Shown here: positions 3,523 to 16,466 of the stretch, piece after piece
How the letters are laid out: each line of letters begins with the position of its first letter
Numbering within the stretch: position 1 is the stretch's first letter
Origin: Crenothrix sp. D3
GTDB taxonomy: Bacteria > Pseudomonadota > Gammaproteobacteria > Methylococcales > Methylomonadaceae
Assembly (NCBI GenBank): GCA_002134785.1
Contig: MBQZ01000018.1
Location: forward strand, 124,001-188,000
DNA: 64,000 nt
Direction: 5' to 3'
Notes under the pieces: model-generated
What the model saw: only the letters and a program-made list of their open reading frames with translations
Database searches by the model: none
What the model was told of the DNA's origin: nothing
Position numbers and translations under genes: made by a program

Positions 3523-3701
3523 GTGTGTAACTCCAAGTAAAAGTATGAAATAGAAATCAAAAAACCCTATTTTTGATTCCGCAGTTAAATTATCACAGGA
3601 GATAATTTGCAAAAATAGTCTGTTTGATGAACATCAGGATGTCAAATATTACGACTAACTAAAATACTGTCATCAGTCAATTCACAACTCAAGCGGTCTT
3701 C

Positions 3702-3721
3702 AATAGGGCAAATGCCCTATT
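3702..3721. promoter_or_regulatory. Perfect palindrome AATAGGGCA-AA-TGCCCTATT upstream of TonB receptor 1
   Basis: 9-bp perfect arms; the equivalent position upstream of receptor 2 (7133-7152) carries AATAAGGCA-AA-TGCCTTAGT, with a compensatory change in both arms. Confidence 0.5.
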
Positions 3722-3860
3722 TCAATATAAAAAGTAGGTTATATCCCCCTGTATATATACACAAAAAATACAACCAATTGAATTTAAACAATAATTTTTA
3801 TGGCGCATAAATTGCTAATGTTATAGTTCATTATAAAAATAAGTTATACAGGAATTGTTA

Positions 3861-6197
3861 GTGATTGATTTTAAACATCCCATAGTCAATAGAGAACACG
3901 CGAGACACGATTTTACTAAAGCTGCCATTATTGCTTTAGCTATTCCTGCATTGACACTGTCGATGACAACGCTAGCCACTGCTGAAACGGTTAAAAAAGC
4001 CGACTCTAAAACGGCAAAATCGAAAACATCAACCGCACAGAACGTACCCAGAAGTGAGAATCGTATTACTACACTTAATGAGATGACAGTTTCTGAAAAA
4101 CAATCGCATATTGATAATTGGCTAACCGAAGATATTGACTCTATCCCTGTGCAAAAAAGAACCGAACTGGGTCATTTGACCATGACCACGCCGCTGGCGG
4201 GTAGCGTCATCGATCAGCAAGAGCTGCAAACAGTCAAATACGTCGATTTTCTCCGTGAGCAGCTAAGCCGCGTTCCCAGTATTAGTTTGGGGCGCAATAT
4301 CCGTATAGCTGATGGTGGTAAAGCCTATACCAATAGCTTAATTGATGGCTTTGTCGTCGGTTCACCCACGGTTGGCAGCATGAGTCAGCCCGATACCATC
4401 AATCCTAAGGAAGTGGAGTCTATCGAAGTGATACGCGGCCCTGCTTCGGTGTTATATCCTAGCAATGGTATCGGTGGCACAATCAATGTTATTACTAAAG
4501 ACCCCAGTAAATTGCCTGAATACTCACTGTCTCAGGAAATCGGTATGTATGATTTATACAGAACGCAAGGTTCAGCCAGTGGTACGGTAAAAAGCCCTAT
4601 CAATGACATTGGTTATTTTGTTGGCTTTAATGCTATGCAATACAATCCGTGGAAAGATAGAACTAAATCTGAGCGTTATTCTGGCACGGGAAAAGTCGTA
4701 CTTCATCCCGATGATGTGTCAAAACTCACGTTACGATTTGATTATACCAGTTGGTATCAGCAAGACCCTGGCAGTCTTACTCGACAACAATGGGTTAATA
4801 ACTGGCAGCAAGCCAATCCTGCTATGTTGAATTTATATCAGGATTTTCAATATATTTCAGGCGTTGCTTCCTATAAACGTAAAGTGGGTGATGGTGGTGA
4901 ATTGGAAGTATCTTTTTCACGCCGCGATAAAATTGGCACTGACGCTAACCCTGGTGGCGGTAGTGCTGCCTCCAGTACCACGCAGCAAGAAATCAATTAT
5001 GGGCAGAACAACGCCCATACCGTTTATCGACAAGATTTTGATTTTGTGAAATCCCGTGTTTATACAGGTGTCGATGTCATTAACGGTTATCAAGACGTTG
5101 AAATATGGAATCGTCCTGCCAGTGGCTTTAATAGAACAACCAAAGCATCCGCTTCCAGCTATACCGAAACCCAAGTCGCCCCGTTTATGCAGTACGAATT
5201 TTCACCGCTCAATGGCGTATTCAAAGACGGCTTTTTAGCCTCTATGGATAACTTACGCTTTAATTTCGGGTTGCGTTATGAAGATTTTCAACAGCACTAT
5301 TATCAAACCTACAATTCCGCAGGCGGTGTACTTAAAAACAGTGGACAGAATTTTGATAAATTAATCAAAAAAGGCGGCTTAGATTATGAATATGTCAAAG
5401 ATCATACACTGTGGTTTGGTGTTGCCGATGGTTGGTTAGTGCCAGGAGCAAGTGTCAATGTTACCGCACAATATCCCAATGAAAACGTAACGCCTGAAAC
5501 CAGTATTACCAAACAACTGGGGTTGAGAGGCTTTTTTCGTGAGCAAGGGCTGACCTATGACATCACTGGCTTTGAAACCAACATTGATAACTACATCGCC
5601 TCGGTATTGTGTAGTGATAATCCGTCGATGTGCAACGGGTGGGCAAAATTACCTAACACGATCACTACAGGTCGAGTTACCACGGTCAACACGGCTAAAA
5701 CCACCGCTTCTTATACAGGCAACCCTGGAAAAGCCACTGTGAGAGGCTTTGAAACTAGCTTGGCGTACCAACCGCATGAGATGGTTAAATTTAGCGTTGC
5801 ACACACCTTAAGCTGGAACGTATTCAATAATTACAATGTGGGTGCGGTTAAATTAAATGGCGTGACAATGGCTATTTCACCCAAGCATCATGTTAATGGA
5901 CGTATTGCCGTGTATCCCATCAAAGGCTTAAGTGTGGAACTGGAAGCCGATTACTTAAGTCGCTACCAAACCAATATTCAAAATACCGACAGCTATGCAC
6001 GCCCCATGTTATTCAATTTGCGCAGTAGTTATCAGTTGAAAAACTGGACACTGTCATTGCAAGCTCTCAATTTATTAAATACTAAATATTCATCCAAAGT
6101 ATCTGCTAATGCGGCGAATGTTCAAAGTTATGGAGGCATTACTGGCATAGCTGATAGCCCGTTTCAGTTCCGCGCAGGGCTGGAATACAATTTTTAA
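3861..6197 (+). CDS. TonB-dependent outer-membrane receptor (copy 1)
   Basis: Signal peptide-like N-terminus (TKAAIIALAIPALTLSMTTLATAE), plug motif IEVIRGPASVLYPSNGIGGTINVITK, C-terminal FQFRAGLEYNF. GTG start at 3861 matches the start of the paralogue at 7288. Confidence 0.93.
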   Translation: MIDFKHPIVNREHARHDFTKAAIIALAIPALTLSMTTLATAETVKKADSKTAKSKTSTAQNVPRSENRITTLNEMTVSEKQSHIDNWLTEDIDSIPVQKRTELGHLTMTTPLAGSVIDQQELQTVKYVDFLREQLSRVPSISLGRNIRIADGGKAYTNSLIDGFVVGSPTVGSMSQPDTINPKEVESIEVIRGPASVLYPSNGIGGTINVITKDPSKLPEYSLSQEIGMYDLYRTQGSASGTVKSPINDIGYFVGFNAMQYNPWKDRTKSERYSGTGKVVLHPDDVSKLTLRFDYTSWYQQDPGSLTRQQWVNNWQQANPAMLNLYQDFQYISGVASYKRKVGDGGELEVSFSRRDKIGTDANPGGGSAASSTTQQEINYGQNNAHTVYRQDFDFVKSRVYTGVDVINGYQDVEIWNRPASGFNRTTKASASSYTETQVAPFMQYEFSPLNGVFKDGFLASMDNLRFNFGLRYEDFQQHYYQTYNSAGGVLKNSGQNFDKLIKKGGLDYEYVKDHTLWFGVADGWLVPGASVNVTAQYPNENVTPETSITKQLGLRGFFREQGLTYDITGFETNIDNYIASVLCSDNPSMCNGWAKLPNTITTGRVTTVNTAKTTASYTGNPGKATVRGFETSLAYQPHEMVKFSVAHTLSWNVFNNYNVGAVKLNGVTMAISPKHHVNGRIAVYPIKGLSVELEADYLSRYQTNIQNTDSYARPMLFNLRSSYQLKNWTLSLQALNLLNTKYSSKVSANAANVQSYGGITGIADSPFQFRAGLEYNF

Positions 6198-6221: not shown

Positions 6222-6535
6222 ATGAAAAAACACTGATCATCCTTGCATTAATGATGAGCGTCCCGTTAAGCGTTATAGCGGCTGAACCTGCTAAAGACTG
6301 CAAAAAAGGCGAGTGGCTGACTAAAGACTTAGGCTTGAATGCAGAGCAGCAAACCAAAGTTGACGCTTTGTTTGAGCAAAATGAAGTTAAAAAGAAAGCC
6401 TTGCACGATGAACTCAGTGCGCAAATAAAAGAAGTGCTGACACCTGAACAACACGCAAAAATGAAAGAAAAACACGATCAAATGAAAGCCAAGCACGCTG
6501 AAATAAAAGGCAAACACAGTTGCCCAGCAGAATAA
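6222..6535 (+). pseudogene. Spy/CpxP-like small periplasmic protein, copy 1, with a one-base frameshift in the signal peptide
   Basis: ATG + 6 A gives M K K H stop. The paralogue at 9664 has ATG + 7 A and reads MKKTLIALALMMTLPLTAMA. Downstream 6251-6535 stays open (LTKDLGLNAEQQTKVDALFEQNEVKKKALHDEL). Confidence 0.7.
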
Positions 6536-6555
6536 ACAATAACGGTTAGCTTTTG

Positions 6556-6581
6556 TTCCCACGCTGCTTCGTGCGTGGGAA
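6556..6581. repeat. Hairpin TTCCCACGC-TGCTTCG-TGCGTGGGAA
   Basis: Inverted repeat visible in sequence between copy 1 and the truncated receptor. Confidence 0.6.
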
Positions 6582-6630
6582 TGATAGTAATAACTTCATC
6601 AATCTACACTCATTGTCGAGAGCTATCAGA

Positions 6631-7137
6631 ATGAAACATCTACCACTTCTCTCCTTACTTACTGTTTTTTTCAGTACCAACACACACGCAGCCTTGTGGT
6701 TTACCGACCAACCAGCTGATAAAGCCATGCCTGCCAAGCAATCCACATCGAAAACCAAAGCAGATAGCCAAGCGAGTGACGAAACCGACAAGCAGGCGGT
6801 AAAAGGTCTGGAAGAAATGGTGGTCAGTGCGACCAAGACTGAAACCTTGCTTTCCAATGCCCTCGCCGCTGTGAGTGTCGTGACTCAAAAAGACATGGAG
6901 TCAAAAAATATTTCAAGATTAGGTGACGCATTGATCAGAGTTCCCAGTTTATTCTTAGGTTTCAATGCCACTGGACAGACGCAAGGTGCGTCTGGTTCGG
7001 GTGGTTTTTCGTTGCGCGGTGTCGATACCCGCCGCACATTGGTATTGGTTGATGGACAACCGTTACAGGATGTCAAATATTACGACCAACTAAAATACTA
7101 TCGTCAATCAATTCACAACCCAAGCGTTTTTCAATAA
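6631..7137 (+). pseudogene. 5' fragment of a third TonB-dependent receptor
   Basis: Signal peptide MKHLPLLSLLTVFFSTNTHA, TonB-box/plug-like LEEMVVSATKTETLLSNALAAVSVVTQKDME and GFSLRGVDTRRTLVLVDGQPLQD; the barrel is missing and the ORF runs into the duplicated upstream region of receptor 2. Confidence 0.85.
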
Positions 7138-7287
7138 GGCAAATGCCTTAGTCCCATAAAAAAAATAGGTGATATACCCTACACTACCCTCTCTAAAAAC
7201 ATAACAACCTGAATTTAAAGTCTTATTTTAATGGCATACAACTTGCTTTTTGTATGATTCATTATAAAAATAATACAGGAGTTGTGA

Positions 7288-9639
7288 GTGATTAATTTTA
7301 AACATTCCACACTAAATACATTAAATATAGAGAGCGCAAGACACAACTTTACTAAAGCTACCATTATTGCTTTAGCCATTCCCGCACTGACTCTGTCGAT
7401 GACAACGCCCGCTACCGCTGAAACAGTCAAAAACTCAGCTTCAAAAACGGCAAAATCGAAAACATCAACAGCGAAGAACGTACCCAGTAGTGAGGATCGT
7501 ATTATTGCACTCGATGAGATGACGGTTTCTGACAAACAATCGCATATTGATAATTGGTTGACCGAAGATATTGACTCTATCCCTGTGCAAAAAAGAACCG
7601 AACTGGGTAAATTAACCATGACCACACCCATAGCAGGGAGTGTCATCGATCAGCAAGAGCTGCAAACCGTCAAATACGTCGATCTTCTTCGTGAGCAACT
7701 GAGTCGAGTGCCAGGAATCAGTATGCAGCGTAATATTCGTATACCCGACGGTGGTAAATCCTATACCAATGGTGCAGTTGATGGTTTTATGGTCGGCTCA
7801 CCCAGCAATGGCAACACCACCAACAATACCGATACGATTAATCCCAAAGAAATAGAGTCTATTGAGGTGATGCGCGGTCCTGCTTCCGTGTTGTATCCCA
7901 GTAATGGCATCGGTGGCACTATCAATATTATTACCAAAGACCCCAGTAAATCACCTGAATACTCGCTGTCTCAGGAAATCGGTATGTATGATTTATATCG
8001 AACACAAGGCTCTGCGAGTGGCACGGTAAAAAGCCCTATCAATGACATCGGCTACTTTGTTGGCATTAGCGCGTTGCAATACAATCCGTGGCGAGATAGA
8101 AGTAAATCAAGGCGCACCTCTAGCACGGGTAAAGTGGTCTTACATCCCGATGACGTGTCAAAACTCACCTTACGATTTGATTATACCGATTGGTATCAAC
8201 AAAATGGCGGTCCTCTTAGCAGACAACAATGGAGTCAAAACTGGCAGCAAGCCAATCCTGCCATGCAGAATTTATATCAAAATTTCCAATATATTTCAGG
8301 ACTTGCGTCTTATAAACGTCAAGTCGGTAATGGCGGAGAGTTGGAAGTGTCTTTTTCAAAGCGCGATAAGAATGGAATCGATGCGAACCCAGGCGGTGGT
8401 AGTGGTGCATCCAGTACCACTGAGCAACACGTTAATCATGGTCAACATAATGCCCATACCGTTTATCGACAAGATTTTGATTTTGTTAAATCGCGCGTTT
8501 ATACGGGTGTCGATATTAATAACGGTTATCAAAATACCGACATTTGGAATCGTGCAGCAAATAGTTTCACAGCAACCTCTAAAGCATCGGCTAGTGTCTA
8601 TCATGAAACTCAAGTCGCCCCGTTTATGCAGTACGAATTTTCACCGCTGAACGGGGTATTTAAAGAAGGCTTTTTGTCTTCGATGGATAATCTACGTTTT
8701 AACTTTGGTTTGCGCCATGAAGATTATCAACAGCATTATTACCAGACCTATAACGCGGCAGGCGGCGTACTTAAAAATAGTGGGCAGAATTTCAATAAAT
8801 TAATCAAAAAAGGTGGTTTAGATTATGAATATGTCAAAGATCACACGCTGTGGTTCGGGGTTGCCGATGGTTGGTTGGTCCCAGGAGCGAGTGCCAGTGT
8901 CACCGCACAATATCCCAACTATAACGTAACGCCTGAAACCAGTATTACCAAACAACTGGGCTTGCGTGGTTTTTTTCGCGAGCAAGGGATGACCTACGAC
9001 ATCACCGCCTTTGAAACCAACATTGATAACTACATGGCATCCGTGTTGTGTAGTGATAATCCATCGGTGTGCGGCGCGTCGTGGTCAAAATTACCTAACA
9101 CTATCACTACAGGTCGAGTTACCACGGTCAACACGGCTAAAACCACCGCCTCTTATACGGGTAATCCAGGTAAAGTCACCGTTAGGGGGTTCGAGACCAG
9201 CTTGGCGTACCAACCGCATGACATGGTTAAATTTAGCGTTGCTCACACCTTGAACTGGAACTTTTGGAATAATTACAATGCAGGAGCAGTTAAATTAAAT
9301 GGGGTCACTATGGTCGGTGCGCCTAAGCACCATGTGAATGCGCGTGTCGCTGTTTATCCAGTGTCTGGATTAAGCGTGGAATTAGAAGCTGACTACTTGA
9401 GTCGCTACTACACCAATATCCAAAATACCAATACTTACTCACGCCCCATGTTGTTTAATTTGCGCAGTAGCTATCAATTGAAAAATTGGACGCTGTCATT
9501 GCAAGCTCTCAATTTATTAAATACCAAATACTCATCCAGAGTAACTTCCGATGCCGCTAATGTTCAAACTTACCAAGGTCTAGCGGGTATCAGCGATGGT
9601 CCATTTCAGTTCCGTGCAGGGCTAGAATACAATTTTTAA
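7288..9639 (+). CDS. TonB-dependent outer-membrane receptor (copy 2)
   Basis: Close paralogue of 3861-6197; plug motif IEVMRGPASVLYPSNGIGGTINIITK; C-terminal FQFRAGLEYNF. Confidence 0.93.
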   Translation: MINFKHSTLNTLNIESARHNFTKATIIALAIPALTLSMTTPATAETVKNSASKTAKSKTSTAKNVPSSEDRIIALDEMTVSDKQSHIDNWLTEDIDSIPVQKRTELGKLTMTTPIAGSVIDQQELQTVKYVDLLREQLSRVPGISMQRNIRIPDGGKSYTNGAVDGFMVGSPSNGNTTNNTDTINPKEIESIEVMRGPASVLYPSNGIGGTINIITKDPSKSPEYSLSQEIGMYDLYRTQGSASGTVKSPINDIGYFVGISALQYNPWRDRSKSRRTSSTGKVVLHPDDVSKLTLRFDYTDWYQQNGGPLSRQQWSQNWQQANPAMQNLYQNFQYISGLASYKRQVGNGGELEVSFSKRDKNGIDANPGGGSGASSTTEQHVNHGQHNAHTVYRQDFDFVKSRVYTGVDINNGYQNTDIWNRAANSFTATSKASASVYHETQVAPFMQYEFSPLNGVFKEGFLSSMDNLRFNFGLRHEDYQQHYYQTYNAAGGVLKNSGQNFNKLIKKGGLDYEYVKDHTLWFGVADGWLVPGASASVTAQYPNYNVTPETSITKQLGLRGFFREQGMTYDITAFETNIDNYMASVLCSDNPSVCGASWSKLPNTITTGRVTTVNTAKTTASYTGNPGKVTVRGFETSLAYQPHDMVKFSVAHTLNWNFWNNYNAGAVKLNGVTMVGAPKHHVNARVAVYPVSGLSVELEADYLSRYYTNIQNTNTYSRPMLFNLRSSYQLKNWTLSLQALNLLNTKYSSRVTSDAANVQTYQGLAGISDGPFQFRAGLEYNF

Positions 9640-9663: not shown

Positions 9664-9999
9664 ATGAAAAAAACACTAATCGCACTGGCTTTAATGATGA
9701 CATTGCCATTAACCGCTATGGCAGTAGAACCTGCTAAAACCGAAGCAACACCCGCTAAAGATTGCAAAAAAAGCGCGTGGCTAACAAAAGACCTAGATCT
9801 CAATGCAGAACAACAAACTAAAGTGGACGCGCTATTTGAACAAAACGCAGTGAAAAAGAAAGCCTTACACGATGAACTCAGTACGCAAATCAAAGAAATA
9901 TTGACCCCTGAACAAAATGCCAAAATGAAAGAAAAACACGACCAGATGAAGGAAAAACACGCTGGAATGAAAGAAAAGCACGGCTGCCCACAAGAATAA
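9664..9999 (+). CDS. Spy/CpxP-like small periplasmic protein with His/Lys-rich C-terminus
   Basis: Signal peptide MKKTLIALALMMTLPLTAMA; LNAEQQTKVDALFEQN and LTPEQNAKMKEKHDQMKEKHAGMKEKHGCPQE resemble LTxxQ-type proteins. Confidence 0.7.
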   Translation: MKKTLIALALMMTLPLTAMAVEPAKTEATPAKDCKKSAWLTKDLDLNAEQQTKVDALFEQNAVKKKALHDELSTQIKEILTPEQNAKMKEKHDQMKEKHAGMKEKHGCPQE

Positions 10000-10092: not shown

Positions 10093-11367
10093 ATGTCAAC
10101 CATCGACCCATTATCACCTATCGCTGAACCCACTCGTGTCACTGGTAAATATTCCACGAAAACACTTGCCGCACTAAAGAAGCTCACTTTACGCAAAGTG
10201 CTATTAAAACTGCATCTCTATATCACCCTGTGGCTGGGTGCATTTCTGGTTATGTCGGGTCTGACAGGTAGCTTATTGGTTTACGATCATGCTATTGATA
10301 AATGGCTTAATTCCGACACTATGCAGGTGGAAGTCGGGCAACAACGACTGCCCTTGTCGATACTGATTACGACTGCCAATCAGGCATCACCCATCAAAGC
10401 ACCACCCGCGAATATGCAGTTACCCGAAGACCCTGATGATGTATTGATGGTGCGCTACGAAGTGCCAATGGAACACAAAGAACACGCGGGGAAAACACAT
10501 AAAATGATGCACGCGCCCTTACACGAAGTCATGGTGAATCCGTATACAGGACAAGTGCTAGGGGATCGCGTCAGAAATGATTCCTTGATGTCGATAGTCT
10601 TGCGCTTGCACGCCAATCTGTTGATTGGTGATACGGGTAAATTAATTATGGGTATCACTGCCTTATTGACCTTGGTGCTAACCATCTCAGGTATTTATTT
10701 GTGGTGGCCGAAATTAAGCAAAATTAAACAGGCGTTTACTATCAAGCGTAATGCTAGTTTCACCCGTTTTAACATCGACCTGCATAAAACAGCGGGCATT
10801 TATACCGCTGTTGTTCTGTTTGCCGTCGCGCTCTCTGGCGTGTATTTCAATCTGCCCGAAGTCTTTAAGCCTGTCGTGAATTATTTCTCGCCACTCGATG
10901 GCATGACAGGCATGGCGGCGATGATGGAAATGAATGCAAAAACAAAATCCGCACCTAGCAATGGAGCTGCACCCTTATCGCCTGAAGCGATAGTCTTAGC
11001 GGTTGAAGCGGCGTATCCCAATATTGAAATTCAACGTTTAGTGTTGGCTAAAAAAGCCGATGACAGTATTCGCGTGACTGGGCGGCAAGTCGGTGAAATT
11101 CGCAGTAAAGGCGCGACTAATATCTGGGTAGATCAATACAGCGGTAAATTCCTGCAAGTCCGTGACCCGTTTAAATTTAATGCGGGTACGGCGTTTGTGA
11201 ACCTGCAACTGCCCTTGCACAACGGTGAAATTCTTGGCACTACAGGGCGCATTATGGTGCTGGTTACAGGGTTCGCGCCATTACTGTTAATGGTAACGGG
11301 CGTTATTCAATGGCTGAAAAAACGCAAAGCGAAACAGTTTCATGATGCGCGATTGAACAGCATTTAA
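10093..11367 (+). CDS. PepSY-associated transmembrane protein
   Basis: LRKVLLKLHLYITLWLGAFLVMSGLTGSLLVYDHAID and LTLVLTISGIYLWWPK are typical of PepSY_TM proteins encoded near siderophore receptors. Confidence 0.85.
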   Translation: MSTIDPLSPIAEPTRVTGKYSTKTLAALKKLTLRKVLLKLHLYITLWLGAFLVMSGLTGSLLVYDHAIDKWLNSDTMQVEVGQQRLPLSILITTANQASPIKAPPANMQLPEDPDDVLMVRYEVPMEHKEHAGKTHKMMHAPLHEVMVNPYTGQVLGDRVRNDSLMSIVLRLHANLLIGDTGKLIMGITALLTLVLTISGIYLWWPKLSKIKQAFTIKRNASFTRFNIDLHKTAGIYTAVVLFAVALSGVYFNLPEVFKPVVNYFSPLDGMTGMAAMMEMNAKTKSAPSNGAAPLSPEAIVLAVEAAYPNIEIQRLVLAKKADDSIRVTGRQVGEIRSKGATNIWVDQYSGKFLQVRDPFKFNAGTAFVNLQLPLHNGEILGTTGRIMVLVTGFAPLLLMVTGVIQWLKKRKAKQFHDARLNSI

Positions 11368-11426
11368 TCCATTAGCTTCCCGACCTGCATAACTGAGCAA
11401 TTACTATTTTTTAAAACACCATCATT

Positions 11427-14400
11427 ATGAATAAATTTAATTCAATCAATCTGTTATGGCTGATACTTTTAATATCAGTCACCATCCCCGCCGCTGCACA
11501 AGTTAAAATTGGCATTTTATCCACGCAGTTTGTGCTGGAACAAAAATTCAAACTCATGGAGCAAGCCGCAAAAAAACAAGGCGTGGAACTGGCGTGGACG
11601 CAAGTTGACCGCGATGGTGAAGCGGGTGTGAAACGGGTGATGGAAAATGCCAATATGGTCATTATTGACGCGCCGCGCAGTGATGATATAACCCTGATTG
11701 AGCGTGTCAGCGCAGGGGCAATGACGAACAACGCATTGCCCACGCTGAGTATTAACATGATGAATCTGCCCAATCGCCTTAAACCCGTGAATTTGGATGC
11801 GGCGGTGGCGGAACGCCTGTTTGATTATTACGCAGGTGGTACGCCGATTAATCATGAACGATTGTTTCAGTATTTAAACGCCCTGCTCACAGGCGGTGAT
11901 GTCAGCAAAATTGCTGAGCCGATGAAATTGCCGAATGGCGGGATTTATCATCCAAAATTTGCCGATTTTATTTTTGATAATCTGCCCGCTTATTTGGCGT
12001 GGTGGGAAACGCAAACGGGTAAAAAGTGGCAAGATAATCCTGTGATTGCAATGGAATCATCGTCCAGCCATATTTCCGATGGTCAATTGCGGATGCTTGA
12101 CGAGACCGTTGACAGTATTGAAAAAGCAGGCGGAGTGCCGTTGATTTTTTATCGTGCCACCCGCGTTGGTCAAGCAGGCGGCAGACCGACTGCACCAGCG
12201 GGCAGTGGTCGTCCAGAAGCCAGCGGCGAAAAACCACGCGGTCGCCCTGAATCAGCTCCGACAACAGCAACAGACAGGGGTTTTCCTAATCCTAAAGCTG
12301 CTCAAAGCGTTGCTGTTAATGAGCCGTTATTAACAATGGATGGCAAAATTATCGCCAACGTGTTGATGGTCAATACTTTTTTAGGCATGAATCCCGATGG
12401 TCGCAAAGCGTGGCATCAAGCAATGGGCATTCCTGTCATTAATATCCTGTCGTATCGCACAGGCACACGCGCCGATTATTACAAAGACTTAGCGGGTGTC
12501 AGCAGTTTTTATCTGCCGTTCACACTCACCAATGCCGAATACATCGGACTGCAAGACCCTGTGGTATTAGCCGCTAACGAAGGCGGCGAAATGGTGCCGA
12601 TACCTGAACAAATGGCTCTGTTGACAGGCAAAGTGATGAATCTTGCCAAGTTACAAACGCTAAAAAATGCCGATAAAAAAGTCGCGTTGTTATTTTGGAA
12701 TCATCCCCCAGGTGAAAAAAATCAGGGCGCGTCCAATATGAACGTCCCGCGCTCTATCGAATACCTGATTGACCAACTGCGTGCAGAAGGTTATGTCTTT
12801 GATAAGGCTAACGAACAGGAAATCATTGCCGCCGTTGCCACCATGCTCAGACCGCGTTATCGACGCGGGGAAATAGACGCGCTGATGAAAACCCCACATT
12901 GGGATTTTTTACCGCTGGACACTTACAAAAAATGGTTTGCCACCTTGCCTGAATCGGTGCAAGCGGATGTCAATAAAGCCTTTGGTGAACCTGAAAAAGC
13001 GAAATGGTTAGCCGATAAAGACGGCGTGCGGGGTTTTGTGATTCCGCGTATGAAGTTGGGTAATCTGGTGATGATGCCACAACCTGCACGCGGTGAAATG
13101 GCGACCGATGAAGATGAGAAAAAAATGTTTCATGACACCAAATTACCGCTTAATCATTCGTATCTGGCGGGCTATTTGTGGATTCGTGAACAATTCGCCG
13201 CCAATGCCATCATTCATTTTGGTACCCACGGCTCACAAGAATGGTCGCAAGGTAAAGAGCGCGGCTTATGGGCATTCGACTACCCCAATCTGCTGGTCGG
13301 CAATGTGCCTGTTGTCTATCCGTACATCATTGACAATATCAGCGAAGCGATTCACGTCAAACGCCGTGGACGCGGAGTGATTGTCAGTTATCAAACGCCT
13401 GCGTTTGCCCCCGCAGGGCTATCGGATGAATTTGTCAAAATTAACGACACCATTCGTGAATACCGCGCCTTGGATGACGGCCCTGTGAAAATCAGCAGTC
13501 GGCAATCCATTATCGACCAAGCGATTAAAATGAATATCGCCAAGGATTTAAAAATGTCGCCTGAAAATTTAGCGACCAACTTTGAAGAATCGTTACGCGA
13601 TATTGAAAATTATCTGGAAGAACTGGGTTCAGCCATGCAGCCTTTGGGTTTGCACACCTTGGGCAAAGATGCTGAACGCGGGCATTTAATCAGTAATGTC
13701 ATGCAGATGTTGGGACAGCCTTACTATGCAGCCTTGGGTATTGATTCAGTTGCCACGTTTAAAGCCGATTACAAACAACTGCAACAATCCAAACCCTATA
13801 AATTCACCGAAGAATGGGTATTTTCCGATAAGCCATTAACCGAACTGAGCGACGAAAAATTGCGGGTGCAAGTGGAATTAGGGCGTAAATATCTAATTGA
13901 TTTATACGCCAAACATGAAATAGAAGGCGTGAGTGCGGTGTTATCGTCACGCTGGATAGACCCTTCTTATGGCGGCGACCCCATTCGTAACCCTGATTCA
14001 TTACCGACAGGGCGCAATATGTATGGCTTTGATCCCTCGCGTGTGCCAACTCGTGCCGCTTATGACGCGGGTAAAAAATCCATTGAAGATTTGATTAACA
14101 GCTACAAAGAAGCTCATGCAGGTCAACCGCCCGAAAAACTCACTTTTACGATGTTCAGCTCAGAAACCATGCGCCACATGGGAATGCTGGAAGCACAGAT
14201 TATGGCAGCAATGGGCGTAAAACCCATCTGGGATGCAGGTGGGCGTGTCACGGGAATCGAAGTCATTCCGCAAGCAGAATTGGGCAGACCGCGTATAGAC
14301 ACCATTATTTCCATCAACGGATTATATCGAGACCAGTTCCCCAATGTCATGGAACGCTTTAATGAAGCCATCATCATGGTGGCTAAACTGAACGAAGCCG

Positions 14401-15554
14401 ATAACGTCAATTTTGTGCGTGCCAATACCCAGCGTATTAAAGCCGACTTTATCAAACAAGGCGTGGAGGAAAAAAAGGCGGAAGAATTCGCCCTGACACG
14501 CATTTTCGGTGAACAAAGCGGTGAATACGGTACTAAATTACCCAAAGCAACGCTGGCTTCTGACAAATGGGAAAAAGACGACGGTAAACTGGCAAATCTG
14601 TATTTGGACAGAATGTCATGGGGCTACGGGCCTAATCCTGCTAACTGGAGCAAAAAACTGCAAGATGCTACAGGAAAAGAGGTCAATACCTACGCGGCGC
14701 AGCTGAAAGGCACTAGTGCGGTGGTGTTCTCGCGCTCGTCTAATTTACGCGGTTTATTAGATACCGACCATCCGTTTGAATTCATGGGCGGCATTTCGCT
14801 TGCCGTACAACAGTTAGACGGCAAAGCCCCGCAAATGTACATTTCTAATATGCGCGATCCCAATAAAACCAAGTTGGAAAGCGCGGAAAAATTCATGGCA
14901 AAAGAATTACGCGCGGTCTATCAGCATCCTAATTGGGTTAAAGAAATGCAGAAAGAGGGTTACTCAGGCACGTTGCAAATGCTCAACACCGTCAATAATT
15001 TCTGGGGCTGGCAAACAATGGACAAAAATGTGGTGCGCGACGACCAGTGGCAGGAATTTCATGAAGTGTATGTGAAAGATAAATACAAACTGGGAACGCG
15101 TGAATGGTTTGAAAAATCCAATCCGACCGCGTTAGCACAAATTACTGAACGCATGATTGAAGCTATCCGCAAAGATTACTGGAAAGCCGATGAACAAACC
15201 AAAAAGGAACTGGTAGAAATTTATCAGGAAATTGCCAAAAAGCACGATGTCCAAACCAATAATGAAGCCTTTAAAACCTATGTAGCGCAATTAGCGCAAG
15301 GCTACGGCGTGAGTGCCAATGCCGCTCCTGCGGCGGCGCAAGCAACACCTGCACAACAAGCAACTGCCCCGCAAAACCCGACTGTATCAGTGCAAGGGCA
15401 ACAACTGCAAAAACAAGAAAAAGCCAGTGATACCGAACCCGACTGGACGCGCTGGCTGTACTTACTGCCCGTATTATTGAGTTTATTCGGCGGTATGTTG
15501 TGGCAGTTATGGTCACAAAAGCCAATAGGGGGTGTTGCAAAAGTCAGCAGTTAG
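11427..15554 (+). CDS. CobN-like chelatase large subunit, secreted and membrane-anchored (HmuS-like)
   Basis: 1375 aa with CobN-type motifs (IIHFGTHGSQEWSQGKERGLW, YPYIIDNISEAIHVKRRGRGVIVSYQTP, FGEQSGEYGTKLPK). N-terminal signal peptide and C-terminal TM WTRWLYLLPVLLSLFGGMLWQLW, which cytosolic CobN lacks. Confidence 0.88.
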   Translation: MNKFNSINLLWLILLISVTIPAAAQVKIGILSTQFVLEQKFKLMEQAAKKQGVELAWTQVDRDGEAGVKRVMENANMVIIDAPRSDDITLIERVSAGAMTNNALPTLSINMMNLPNRLKPVNLDAAVAERLFDYYAGGTPINHERLFQYLNALLTGGDVSKIAEPMKLPNGGIYHPKFADFIFDNLPAYLAWWETQTGKKWQDNPVIAMESSSSHISDGQLRMLDETVDSIEKAGGVPLIFYRATRVGQAGGRPTAPAGSGRPEASGEKPRGRPESAPTTATDRGFPNPKAAQSVAVNEPLLTMDGKIIANVLMVNTFLGMNPDGRKAWHQAMGIPVINILSYRTGTRADYYKDLAGVSSFYLPFTLTNAEYIGLQDPVVLAANEGGEMVPIPEQMALLTGKVMNLAKLQTLKNADKKVALLFWNHPPGEKNQGASNMNVPRSIEYLIDQLRAEGYVFDKANEQEIIAAVATMLRPRYRRGEIDALMKTPHWDFLPLDTYKKWFATLPESVQADVNKAFGEPEKAKWLADKDGVRGFVIPRMKLGNLVMMPQPARGEMATDEDEKKMFHDTKLPLNHSYLAGYLWIREQFAANAIIHFGTHGSQEWSQGKERGLWAFDYPNLLVGNVPVVYPYIIDNISEAIHVKRRGRGVIVSYQTPAFAPAGLSDEFVKINDTIREYRALDDGPVKISSRQSIIDQAIKMNIAKDLKMSPENLATNFEESLRDIENYLEELGSAMQPLGLHTLGKDAERGHLISNVMQMLGQPYYAALGIDSVATFKADYKQLQQSKPYKFTEEWVFSDKPLTELSDEKLRVQVELGRKYLIDLYAKHEIEGVSAVLSSRWIDPSYGGDPIRNPDSLPTGRNMYGFDPSRVPTRAAYDAGKKSIEDLINSYKEAHAGQPPEKLTFTMFSSETMRHMGMLEAQIMAAMGVKPIWDAGGRVTGIEVIPQAELGRPRIDTIISINGLYRDQFPNVMERFNEAIIMVAKLNEADNVNFVRANTQRIKADFIKQGVEEKKAEEFALTRIFGEQSGEYGTKLPKATLASDKWEKDDGKLANLYLDRMSWGYGPNPANWSKKLQDATGKEVNTYAAQLKGTSAVVFSRSSNLRGLLDTDHPFEFMGGISLAVQQLDGKAPQMYISNMRDPNKTKLESAEKFMAKELRAVYQHPNWVKEMQKEGYSGTLQMLNTVNNFWGWQTMDKNVVRDDQWQEFHEVYVKDKYKLGTREWFEKSNPTALAQITERMIEAIRKDYWKADEQTKKELVEIYQEIAKKHDVQTNNEAFKTYVAQLAQGYGVSANAAPAAAQATPAQQATAPQNPTVSVQGQQLQKQEKASDTEPDWTRWLYLLPVLLSLFGGMLWQLWSQKPIGGVAKVSS

Positions 15555-15633
15555 CTTATTCCCCTCGTTCCCACATAGCGCGTGGAAACTTGAACAACTT
15601 TTTTGTTAAACCTCATAAGAGAATTACTAAATC

Positions 15634-16125
15634 ATGTCATTTATCGAATTATCGCTATACGAAGTTACCAAGTATTTTTTAACCCCTGTCTTACTGCTTA
15701 TCATCGCTATGTTTCTGTATGCGTTTTTTATGTTCGGCATATTTTTGATGGAATTAGCGCAAAGAATGTGGGCGAATAGCCAACAACAGACCTATCCAAA
15801 CCGCCTTGATAGCTATCGTAAGAGCATCAAAAATTGCACCATTGAAGACATGGAGTTATTTATTCTAAAACAATTAGAACCGTTAAAAATTGTCTCGCGT
15901 GCCTCGCCGATGCTGGGTTTAGTCGCCACTATGATTCCTATGGGGCCTGCGTTGCTATCACTCACCGAAGGCAATAGCCGCAACGTCAGTGAAAATTTAG
16001 TGGTCGCGTTTTCCGCTGTTATCACCGCGCTATTAGCCGCCTCTATCACTTTCGTGATTCTTACCGTCCGCCGCCGCTGGTTATTAACTGAATTGCGGGC
16101 TGTTAGCCCATTGATAGGAGAGTAA
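15634..16125 (+). CDS. MotA/TolQ/ExbB-like proton channel family protein
   Basis: Multiple TM segments; SRASPMLGLVATMIPMGPAL matches the TolQ/ExbB-family core. Confidence 0.85.
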   Translation: MSFIELSLYEVTKYFLTPVLLLIIAMFLYAFFMFGIFLMELAQRMWANSQQQTYPNRLDSYRKSIKNCTIEDMELFILKQLEPLKIVSRASPMLGLVATMIPMGPALLSLTEGNSRNVSENLVVAFSAVITALLAASITFVILTVRRRWLLTELRAVSPLIGE

Positions 16126-16127
16126 GC

Positions 16128-16466
16128 GTGGCAAAAAGCAGACTGCATATTTTAGAAGATGAAGAACTTGATGATCCTATTTTGTCCATCGTCAACGCCG
16201 TTGACGTATTTCTAGTCATCATCGCCATTTTATTTATCATCGTCATGGAAAACCCGCTCAATCCATTCAATGAAGATAAAGTGGTTGTCATTAAAAATCC
16301 GGGTGAAAAGAACATGGAAATGACCATCAAGGACGGCAAAAAAATGGAAAAATACAAAGCGACAGGCAAAATTGGTGAAGGTGAAGGCATGAAAGCGGGT
16401 GTTACCTACCAGCTAAAAGATGGCTCTTTTGTCTATGTGCCAGAAAAGGAAGCCGCTGCAAAATAA
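16128..16466 (+). CDS. DUF2149-like single-TM protein
   Basis: DDPILSIVNAVDVFLVIIAILFIIVMENPLNPF motif; 2-bp gap after the ExbB-like gene. Confidence 0.8.
   Translation: MAKSRLHILEDEELDDPILSIVNAVDVFLVIIAILFIIVMENPLNPFNEDKVVVIKNPGEKNMEMTIKDGKKMEKYKATGKIGEGEGMKAGVTYQLKDGSFVYVPEKEAAAK

Follow-up and report, generated by a model that had tools for sequence, protein, structure and literature searches.

The window analysed here is a stretch of 64,000 nucleotides from Crenothrix sp. D3 (GCA_002134785.1, MBQZ01000018.1, positions 124,001-188,000 of the forward strand), located on contig 18 of a genome of 3.63 Mb that is 99.99% complete. In it, genes for a CobN-like protein, an ExbB/TolQ-like protein and a DUF2149 protein follow TonB-dependent receptor genes and a gene for a PepSY_TM membrane protein. 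This is a genuine, conserved system of the HmuS/PA1923 kind, and on balance we lean towards the reading that the operon encodes a motor-coupled, reductive periplasmic de-chelatase, which would act on an imported metal complex for metal acquisition. The genes, all on the + strand between 3855 and 16466, are as follows.

3855-6197, +: TonB-dependent receptor 1 (Plug domain, 46 bits)
6251-6535, +: small Spy/LTXXQ-like protein 1 (19.6 bits, under the Pfam cut-off of 24.3)
6553-7137, +: truncated TonB receptor, plug only, 194 residues (Plug, 51 bits)
7288-9639, +: TonB-dependent receptor 2 (Plug, 51 bits)
9664-9999, +: small Spy/LTXXQ-like protein 2 (19.8 bits, under the same cut-off)
10093-11367, +: PepSY_TM inner-membrane protein, FoxB homolog (PepSY_TM, 225 bits)
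11427-15554, +: periplasmic CobN/HmuS-like chelatase (PF02514 CobN-Mg_chel, 948 bits)
15634-16125, +: ExbB/TolQ-like motor stator (PF01618 MotA_ExbB, 27 bits, cut-off 22.9)
16128-16466, +: DUF2149 protein (PF09919, 86 bits)

The Pfam profile search agreed with a preliminary description of this DNA on the families and coordinates of the CobN-like, ExbB/TolQ-like and DUF2149 genes. The PepSY membrane protein named there was also recovered, and the placing of a motor pair of the proton-motive-force type beside a chelatase relative and TonB receptors stands as described.

The trio of CobN-like, ExbB-like and DUF2149 genes is a real unit and not a chance neighbourhood. About 55 loci (L numbers below) were read, with relatives found via the CobN-like protein, via DUF2149 (a profile search of 387 gammaproteobacterial genomes, 20 above the cut-off) and via a plasmid protein search. 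In 39 loci all three genes stood together, in most cases accompanied by a TonB receptor. ExbB-like and DUF2149 genes adjoined the CobN-like gene in 10 of the 11 CobN-recovered loci with intact downstream DNA, and every DUF2149-recovered locus except one, the weakest and below the cut-off, had a CobN-like gene. Neither partner was present at any of 11 cytosolic CobN/BchH loci. Furthermore, the trio crosses phyla, being found in Azospirillum brasilense, Runella slithyformis, Trichlorobacter and the hmu operons of Prevotella and Bacteroides. Its distribution is patchy, with a strong gene-covering match in two of seven sampled relatives of the same genus. The CobN-like protein was 94-98% identical to proteins of named Methylococcales metagenome-assembled genomes (MAGs), which makes the earlier suggestion of a probable methanotroph reasonable, and 78-81% identical to those of Methylobacter and Methylococcaceae MAGs.

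Export, kinship and active site of the CobN-like protein

The protein scored 1680 bits with the equivalog NF004644 (NCBIfam, cobaltochelatase subunit CobN; cut-off 1248) and no other gene of the genome encodes a PF02514 protein; CobT is absent. A hydrophobic signal at residues 6-24 with an AAA-Q-like site bears out the earlier prediction that the protein faces the periplasm. The C-terminal transmembrane (TM) helix predicted at the same time was found as a hydrophobic segment, which exceeds the Kyte-Doolittle threshold in close relatives but narrowly misses it in the window protein. Most relatives of the group have both the N-terminal signal and the C-terminal segment, whereas cytosolic CobN/BchH proteins mostly do not.

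In a tree of 52 proteins, the window protein fell in a fully supported clade (type A) of methylotroph, Thiomicrorhabdus and betaproteobacterial proteins, which was joined to other proteobacterial exported proteins (type B) with a support of 100. A single branch with a support of 99.6 split the exported groups (types A, B and C, HmuS and Runella/Trichlorobacter) from CobN/BchH. Within the exported groups, the window protein lay outside the HmuS clade. By pairwise measures, HmuS is nearest: it gave the best sequence match in the PDB (444 bits, against 331 for CobN and 330 for ChlH) and the best fold match (9d26, TMq 0.74, against 0.69 for CobN and 0.64 for ChlH) with an AlphaFold model covering residues 131-1290 at a mean predicted local distance difference test score (pLDDT) of 73. 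The preliminary claim of a closer relationship to HmuS than to cytosolic CobN thus holds for pairwise bits and fold. It does not hold for the tree, in which HmuS as the closest relative is unsupported, since trees that place the window clade with CobN instead of HmuS (approximately unbiased p-value, p-AU, 0.41) or with type C (p-AU 0.44) were not rejected. A plasmid of Cupriavidus sp. EM10 (L111) carries two CobN-like genes in tandem, where ExbB and DUF2149 genes were not found; one product has a signal-like N-terminus and groups in the tree with the exported proteins, and the other is a true CobN.

In B. thetaiotaomicron HmuS, His538 and His1209 (with Glu1212) face each other across the central cleft, replacement of His538 by Ala abolishes the conversion of heme to protoporphyrin IX, and the heme iron must be reduced before its release (PMC12583661). 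The window protein has His601 in an HFGTHG motif aligned to His538, and His1115 and Glu1118 of DHPFEFMGG occupy the places of His1209 and Glu1212; these three are its candidate axial or acid residues. HmuS LSLDHxxEFMGG reads LLDTDHPFEFMGG in the window protein, in which the DH..EFMGG core is exact and the LSL part differs. HFGTHG, S911, R1103-x-S-N and D1114-H1115-x-x-E1118 are common to both proteins. No true CobN has the HmuS-type His/Glu pair, Asp-Asp and Gln standing there instead of DH..E, and before this motif the exported groups mostly have R-x-S-N where CobN has Q-D-N-R. The resemblance to HmuS-HmuU-HmuV proposed earlier is therefore borne out by the shared second catalytic His and the fold match. 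The chemistry looks HmuS-like, as far as these residues indicate.

These same positions bear on the possibility that the CobN-like body is no enzyme but a periplasmic metallophore-binding protein, with ExbB/DUF2149 energizing the hand-over or the receptors. We regard this as unlikely, although it has several points in its favour. At these two positions, types B and C mostly carry Asp and either Gln or Asp, as true CobN does, instead of His and Glu, so that the chemistry may not be conserved throughout; some trio clusters contain their own TonB-ExbB-ExbD; and a chaperone role was considered by the authors of work on P. gingivalis HmuS. Against it, the window clade keeps the His/Glu pair in 14/14 copies covering the site and His601 in 15/15.

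Putative motor pair and reductase, receptors and promoters

The family profile of the ExbB-like protein found structure chains of TolQ (E 8e-19) and ExbB (E 1.5e-16), and the protein keeps the pore motif P-x-x-G-L-x-x-T. The DUF2149 protein has a single TM helix bearing Asn23 and Asp26, the latter near-invariant and, in the close set, invariant. This helix aligns with the ExbD helix that holds the proton-binding Asp. Strands are predicted after the helix with low confidence (model pLDDT 62, too poor for structure search), and the strand-rich domain is predicted to be periplasmic. DUF2149 is likely, but not proven, to be ExbD kin acting as an ExbD-like partner.

Beyond the preliminary description, the PepSY_TM protein can be assigned as a homolog of FoxB-type heme reductases. 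It is homologous to PDB 7abw (E 3.8e-32), which we take to be the FoxB structure, and all four of its heme-ligand candidates, His41, 173, 231 and 376, aligned with histidines of 7abw. FoxB contains two hemes, each held by two histidines, and proteins of this type serve in ferrisiderophore reduction in the periplasm; CrpH, which is encoded beside a copper receptor, requires the same kind of histidines (PMC13038864). PepSY_TM genes were also present inside clusters L003, L012, L091 and L092, and in L092 a 4Fe-4S polyferredoxin gene stands between the receptor and PepSY_TM. In L004 (14276-18477) and L006 (11398-14544), genes for DUF4198, a polyferredoxin and an HGD-D double-cubane-type (2-hydroxyglutaryl-CoA-dehydratase-type) reductase adjoin the trio cluster. 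L004 also has the BcrAD-type ATPase of the HGD-D reductase; the L006 sequence ends after HGD-D, and its neighbours include TonB and ExbB-ExbD. The window genome has no HGD-D. In the window clade, electron delivery seems to recur as a companion function.

Receptor 2 had YncD/PqqU as its nearest solved chains (62 bits), the PDB matches being at plug level only, and no NCBIfam model came near its cut-off for a receptor substrate. The duplication of the receptors noted previously was seen as two copies, to which the third, truncated open reading frame (ORF) at 6553-7137 has to be added; sited between both copies, it is a probable remnant. By analogy with copy 2, a GTG start at 3861 is more likely for receptor 1 than 3855. 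The scores behind the earlier Spy-like assignments of the two small proteins both stay below the cut-off.

A second addition concerns sigma-54 promoters with paired palindromes before both receptor genes.

3705-3718 and 3736-3749, +: two dyad-symmetric sites, receptor 1, AGGGCAAATGCCCT and AGGTTATATCCCCC
3801-3816, +: sigma-54 type -24/-12 promoter, receptor 1, TGGCGCATAAATTGCT
7136-7149 and 7167-7180, +: two dyad-symmetric sites, receptor 2, AAGGCAAATGCCTT and AGGTGATATACCCT
7232-7247, +: sigma-54 type -24/-12 promoter, receptor 2, TGGCATACAACTTGCT

TGGCGCATAAATTGCT and TGGCATACAACTTGCT were two of the four best sigma-54 sites in 128 kb of strand, and 0.07 sites were expected in 390 shuffled bases at a looser threshold. 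Equivalent sites precede the first cluster gene in L002, L003, L004, L005, L006 (before tonB) and L007, and none was found before the cluster in the non-methanotroph relatives L008, L010, L012 and L015. In L004, in L007 and at both window promoters, palindromes of the AGGKNATATNMCCT type are placed 96-98 and 65-66 bases before the -24 element (96 and 65 bases in the window). A genome search with the paired-site spacing returned both receptor promoters and two unrelated single matches elsewhere. Such paired upstream sites are a usual layout for enhancer-binding proteins, and the dyad pairs are candidate sites for such a protein. The genome encodes RpoN. Zur control was rejected: the first 20 kb of the window and the related loci contained no Zur box at one mismatch or fewer, the matches with two to three mismatches were near chance, and genome-wide near-matches were fewer than those of a control pattern.

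Several further observations were made in and around the cluster. The promoter-receptor-Spy-like unit is tandemly duplicated, and a repeat of the tail of the truncated receptor ORF, which ends at 7137, lies upstream of receptor 1 (3640-3710 and 7060-7140). An inverted repeat, GTTCCCACGCTGCTTCGTGCGTGGGAA, is located between genes at 6557-6583, with a degenerate copy at 15569-15590 between the CobN-like and ExbB-like genes, and resembles a small interspersed palindromic repeat. The cluster is followed by a phosphoenolpyruvate synthase gene in convergent orientation. In the close relative L003, PepSY_TM and the CobN-like gene are separated by an iron/manganese superoxide dismutase gene (7190-7933). 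In L004 (1023-5105, - strand) and L007 (977-5104, - strand), both Methylobacter MAGs, a divergent gene upstream of the cluster encodes a signal-bearing multi-TM protein of 1360-1375 residues, for which a search with the L004 copy gave no Pfam match. An EF-hand protein gene lies within the type B2 methanotroph cluster L091 (11957-12619, - strand); a calcium or lanthanide link is conceivable.

Proposed mechanism and rival readings

In the mechanism that we propose, the cargo of the two TonB receptors would be a metal complex, either a tetrapyrrole or a metallophore resembling one. Once it is in the periplasm, the FoxB-like PepSY_TM protein would reduce the bound metal with electrons passed across the inner membrane via its two hemes. 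The membrane-anchored CobN-like protein would hold the complex in its central cleft, with His601 opposite His1115/Glu1118, protonate the ligand and free the metal ion, which is the reverse of the chelatase reaction, as in HmuS. The ExbB-like and DUF2149 proteins may together work as a small motor, powered by protons, that shifts or resets the chelatase; they would take the place of the ATP-driven CobS/ChlI partner, which is of no use to a protein in the periplasm. Transcription would proceed from the sigma-54 promoters under an enhancer-binding protein, and the genes may be co-regulated. The direction of removal, rather than insertion, is suggested by analogy with HmuS and by the scarcity regulation of relatives. 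Iron is the foremost candidate metal, somewhat short of an even chance, followed by cobalt or nickel, then copper, and last zinc or another metal. Zinc was missing from the earlier list of metals because the Zur-regulated parallel PA1922-PA1925 had been overlooked.

Several observations weigh against this mechanism. The methionine-rich insertion of HmuS (domain IV) is missing: the interval from HFGTHG to PTGRN is 262 residues with 0 Met in the insertion region, compared with 324-512 residues and 5-18 Met per 60 in the HmuS references. Met79 and His254, the axial head and neck heme ligands of HmuS, are replaced by Pro83 and Leu319, in an N-terminal alignment weaker than the rest, and two of five residues of the propionate pocket are kept (Ser1014 Ser, Ser1067 Asn, Gln1198 Ser, Ser1199 Ser and Trp1202 Arg). 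The match of DUF2149 to ExbD is weak, short and at the level of the helix (hhalign probability 33%). PepSY_TM is absent from the related clusters L002, L004 and L007, so reduction by this protein cannot be obligatory. Furthermore, B. pertussis CrpH functions independently of its neighbouring receptor (PMC13038864), so the adjacency of two such genes is no proof that they share a substrate. The cluster has no inner-membrane importer that could take up the freed metal and lacks a HmuT-like permease, and DUF2162 is absent from the genome.

The differences from HmuS bear equally on the idea that the window protein is a strict HmuS ortholog, i.e., an iron-from-heme de-chelatase in a methanotroph, which we consider improbable. 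It would account for the same trio, for the DHxxEFMGG and HFGTHG motifs and for HmuS being the best PDB match in fold and sequence. However, strict membership was rejected because the methionine-rich insertion, Met79 and His254 are lacking; the Trp1202, Gln1198 and Ser1067 replacements, the position outside the HmuS clade and the lack of HmuT in the cluster speak against it as well, and HmuY was not found, in a search whose controls gave no match either. With these heme-site residues and the insertion missing, a heme substrate is not implied, and the substrate is probably other than heme b. An Arg in place of Trp1202 would suit a ligand with more carboxylates. The CobN-like protein thus appears to be HmuS-like in mechanism without being a strict HmuS.

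It is very unlikely that the protein is instead a periplasmic insertase, loading metal into an apo-ligand or into a salvaged apo-corrinoid or apo-porphyrin brought in from outside. Such a role would fit a fold family of cobalt and magnesium insertases and the NCBIfam name CobN, but the genome has neither CobT nor another PF02514 protein, the cluster has no cobalamin (cob) genes, and characterised members of the trio act in removal or sit in scarcity regulons. The ordinary aerobic cobaltochelatase CobN of vitamin B12 synthesis, as auto-annotated in line with the NF004644 score, can practically be dismissed on the signal peptide, the membrane anchor, the linkage to the trio, the absence of CobT and the 99.6-support separation.

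A wider proposal, which we offer tentatively and hold to be somewhat doubtful, is that the reductive de-chelatase favoured here belongs to a family of de-chelatases in the periplasm, driven by proton motors, among which the metal target (Fe, Zn, Ni, Co and Cu) is interchangeable, and that the methanotroph branch of this family is sigma-54-controlled, works with a FoxB-like reductase and strips a tetrapyrrole other than heme b or a metallophore. If true, driving an enzyme would join TonB-driven transport, flagellar function and Tol work as a use of ExbB-type motors. For methanotrophs, whose methane oxidation relies on scarce metals, the system points to an unrecognised route of metal supply. 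The residue signatures separate, among proteins annotated as CobN, the cytosolic insertases from several groups that are exported and motor-linked, some with and some without the HmuS catalytic His, and they give specific predictions open to mutation tests.

Relation to known systems

The heme de-chelatase activity of HmuS was demonstrated as recently as 2025. The window system resembles HmuS-HmuU-HmuV (B. thetaiotaomicron HmuS, PDB 9D26, PMC12583661) in its periplasmic CobN-fold protein with N- and C-terminal anchors, in its ExbB-like and DUF2149 partners, in the TonB receptor alongside and in the equivalents of His538, His1209 and Glu1212. Of the six-gene hmu operon YRSTUV, only the R, S, U and V types are present, and unlike hmu the window cluster lacks HmuT and has sigma-54 promoters and a FoxB-like reductase.

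A TonB receptor, a CobN-like, an ExbB/D-like and a DUF2149 protein are likewise encoded in one gammaproteobacterial operon in P. aeruginosa, PA1922-PA1925, compared here by published gene types. This Zur-controlled operon is up 45- to 147-fold on zinc depletion (PMC4542158, PMC9431628). The strongly zinc-induced PA1923 is still annotated under cobalamin synthesis. Iron limitation induces hmuYRSTUV of P. gingivalis and P. intermedia, and methanogen CobN1 is produced at a high level only under nickel limitation. This induction of relatives by low iron, zinc or nickel places the window system in a metal-scarcity family wider than heme; its sigma-54 promoters contrast with the iron regulation of hmu and the Zur control of PA1922-PA1925.

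Plasmid clusters of Runella slithyformis, Trichlorobacter lovleyi and Azospirillum brasilense contain the trio and, within the cluster or close by, a TonB receptor. Their CobN-like proteins are 32-39% identical to that of the window; those of Runella and Trichlorobacter have Asp where the window protein has the catalytic His. The T. lovleyi cluster contains DUF2162 and TonB-ExbBD. On pRUNSL01 of R. slithyformis (L107), the trio, a receptor and a NicO-like permease gene lie inside a [NiFe]-hydrogenase maturation cluster (hypCDEF), a setting suggestive of nickel as the metal handled in that branch.

FoxB and CrpH (PDB 7ABW; PMC13038864) share with the window PepSY_TM protein the four heme-ligand histidines and an adjoining receptor gene, whereas only the latter stands beside a CobN-like de-chelatase and a motor. 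Cytosolic CobN and ChlH-BchH share with the window protein the six-domain fold and an HFGTHG-type loop, but they are cytosolic, need the ATP-driven CobS/ChlI partners and occur without ExbB/DUF2149.

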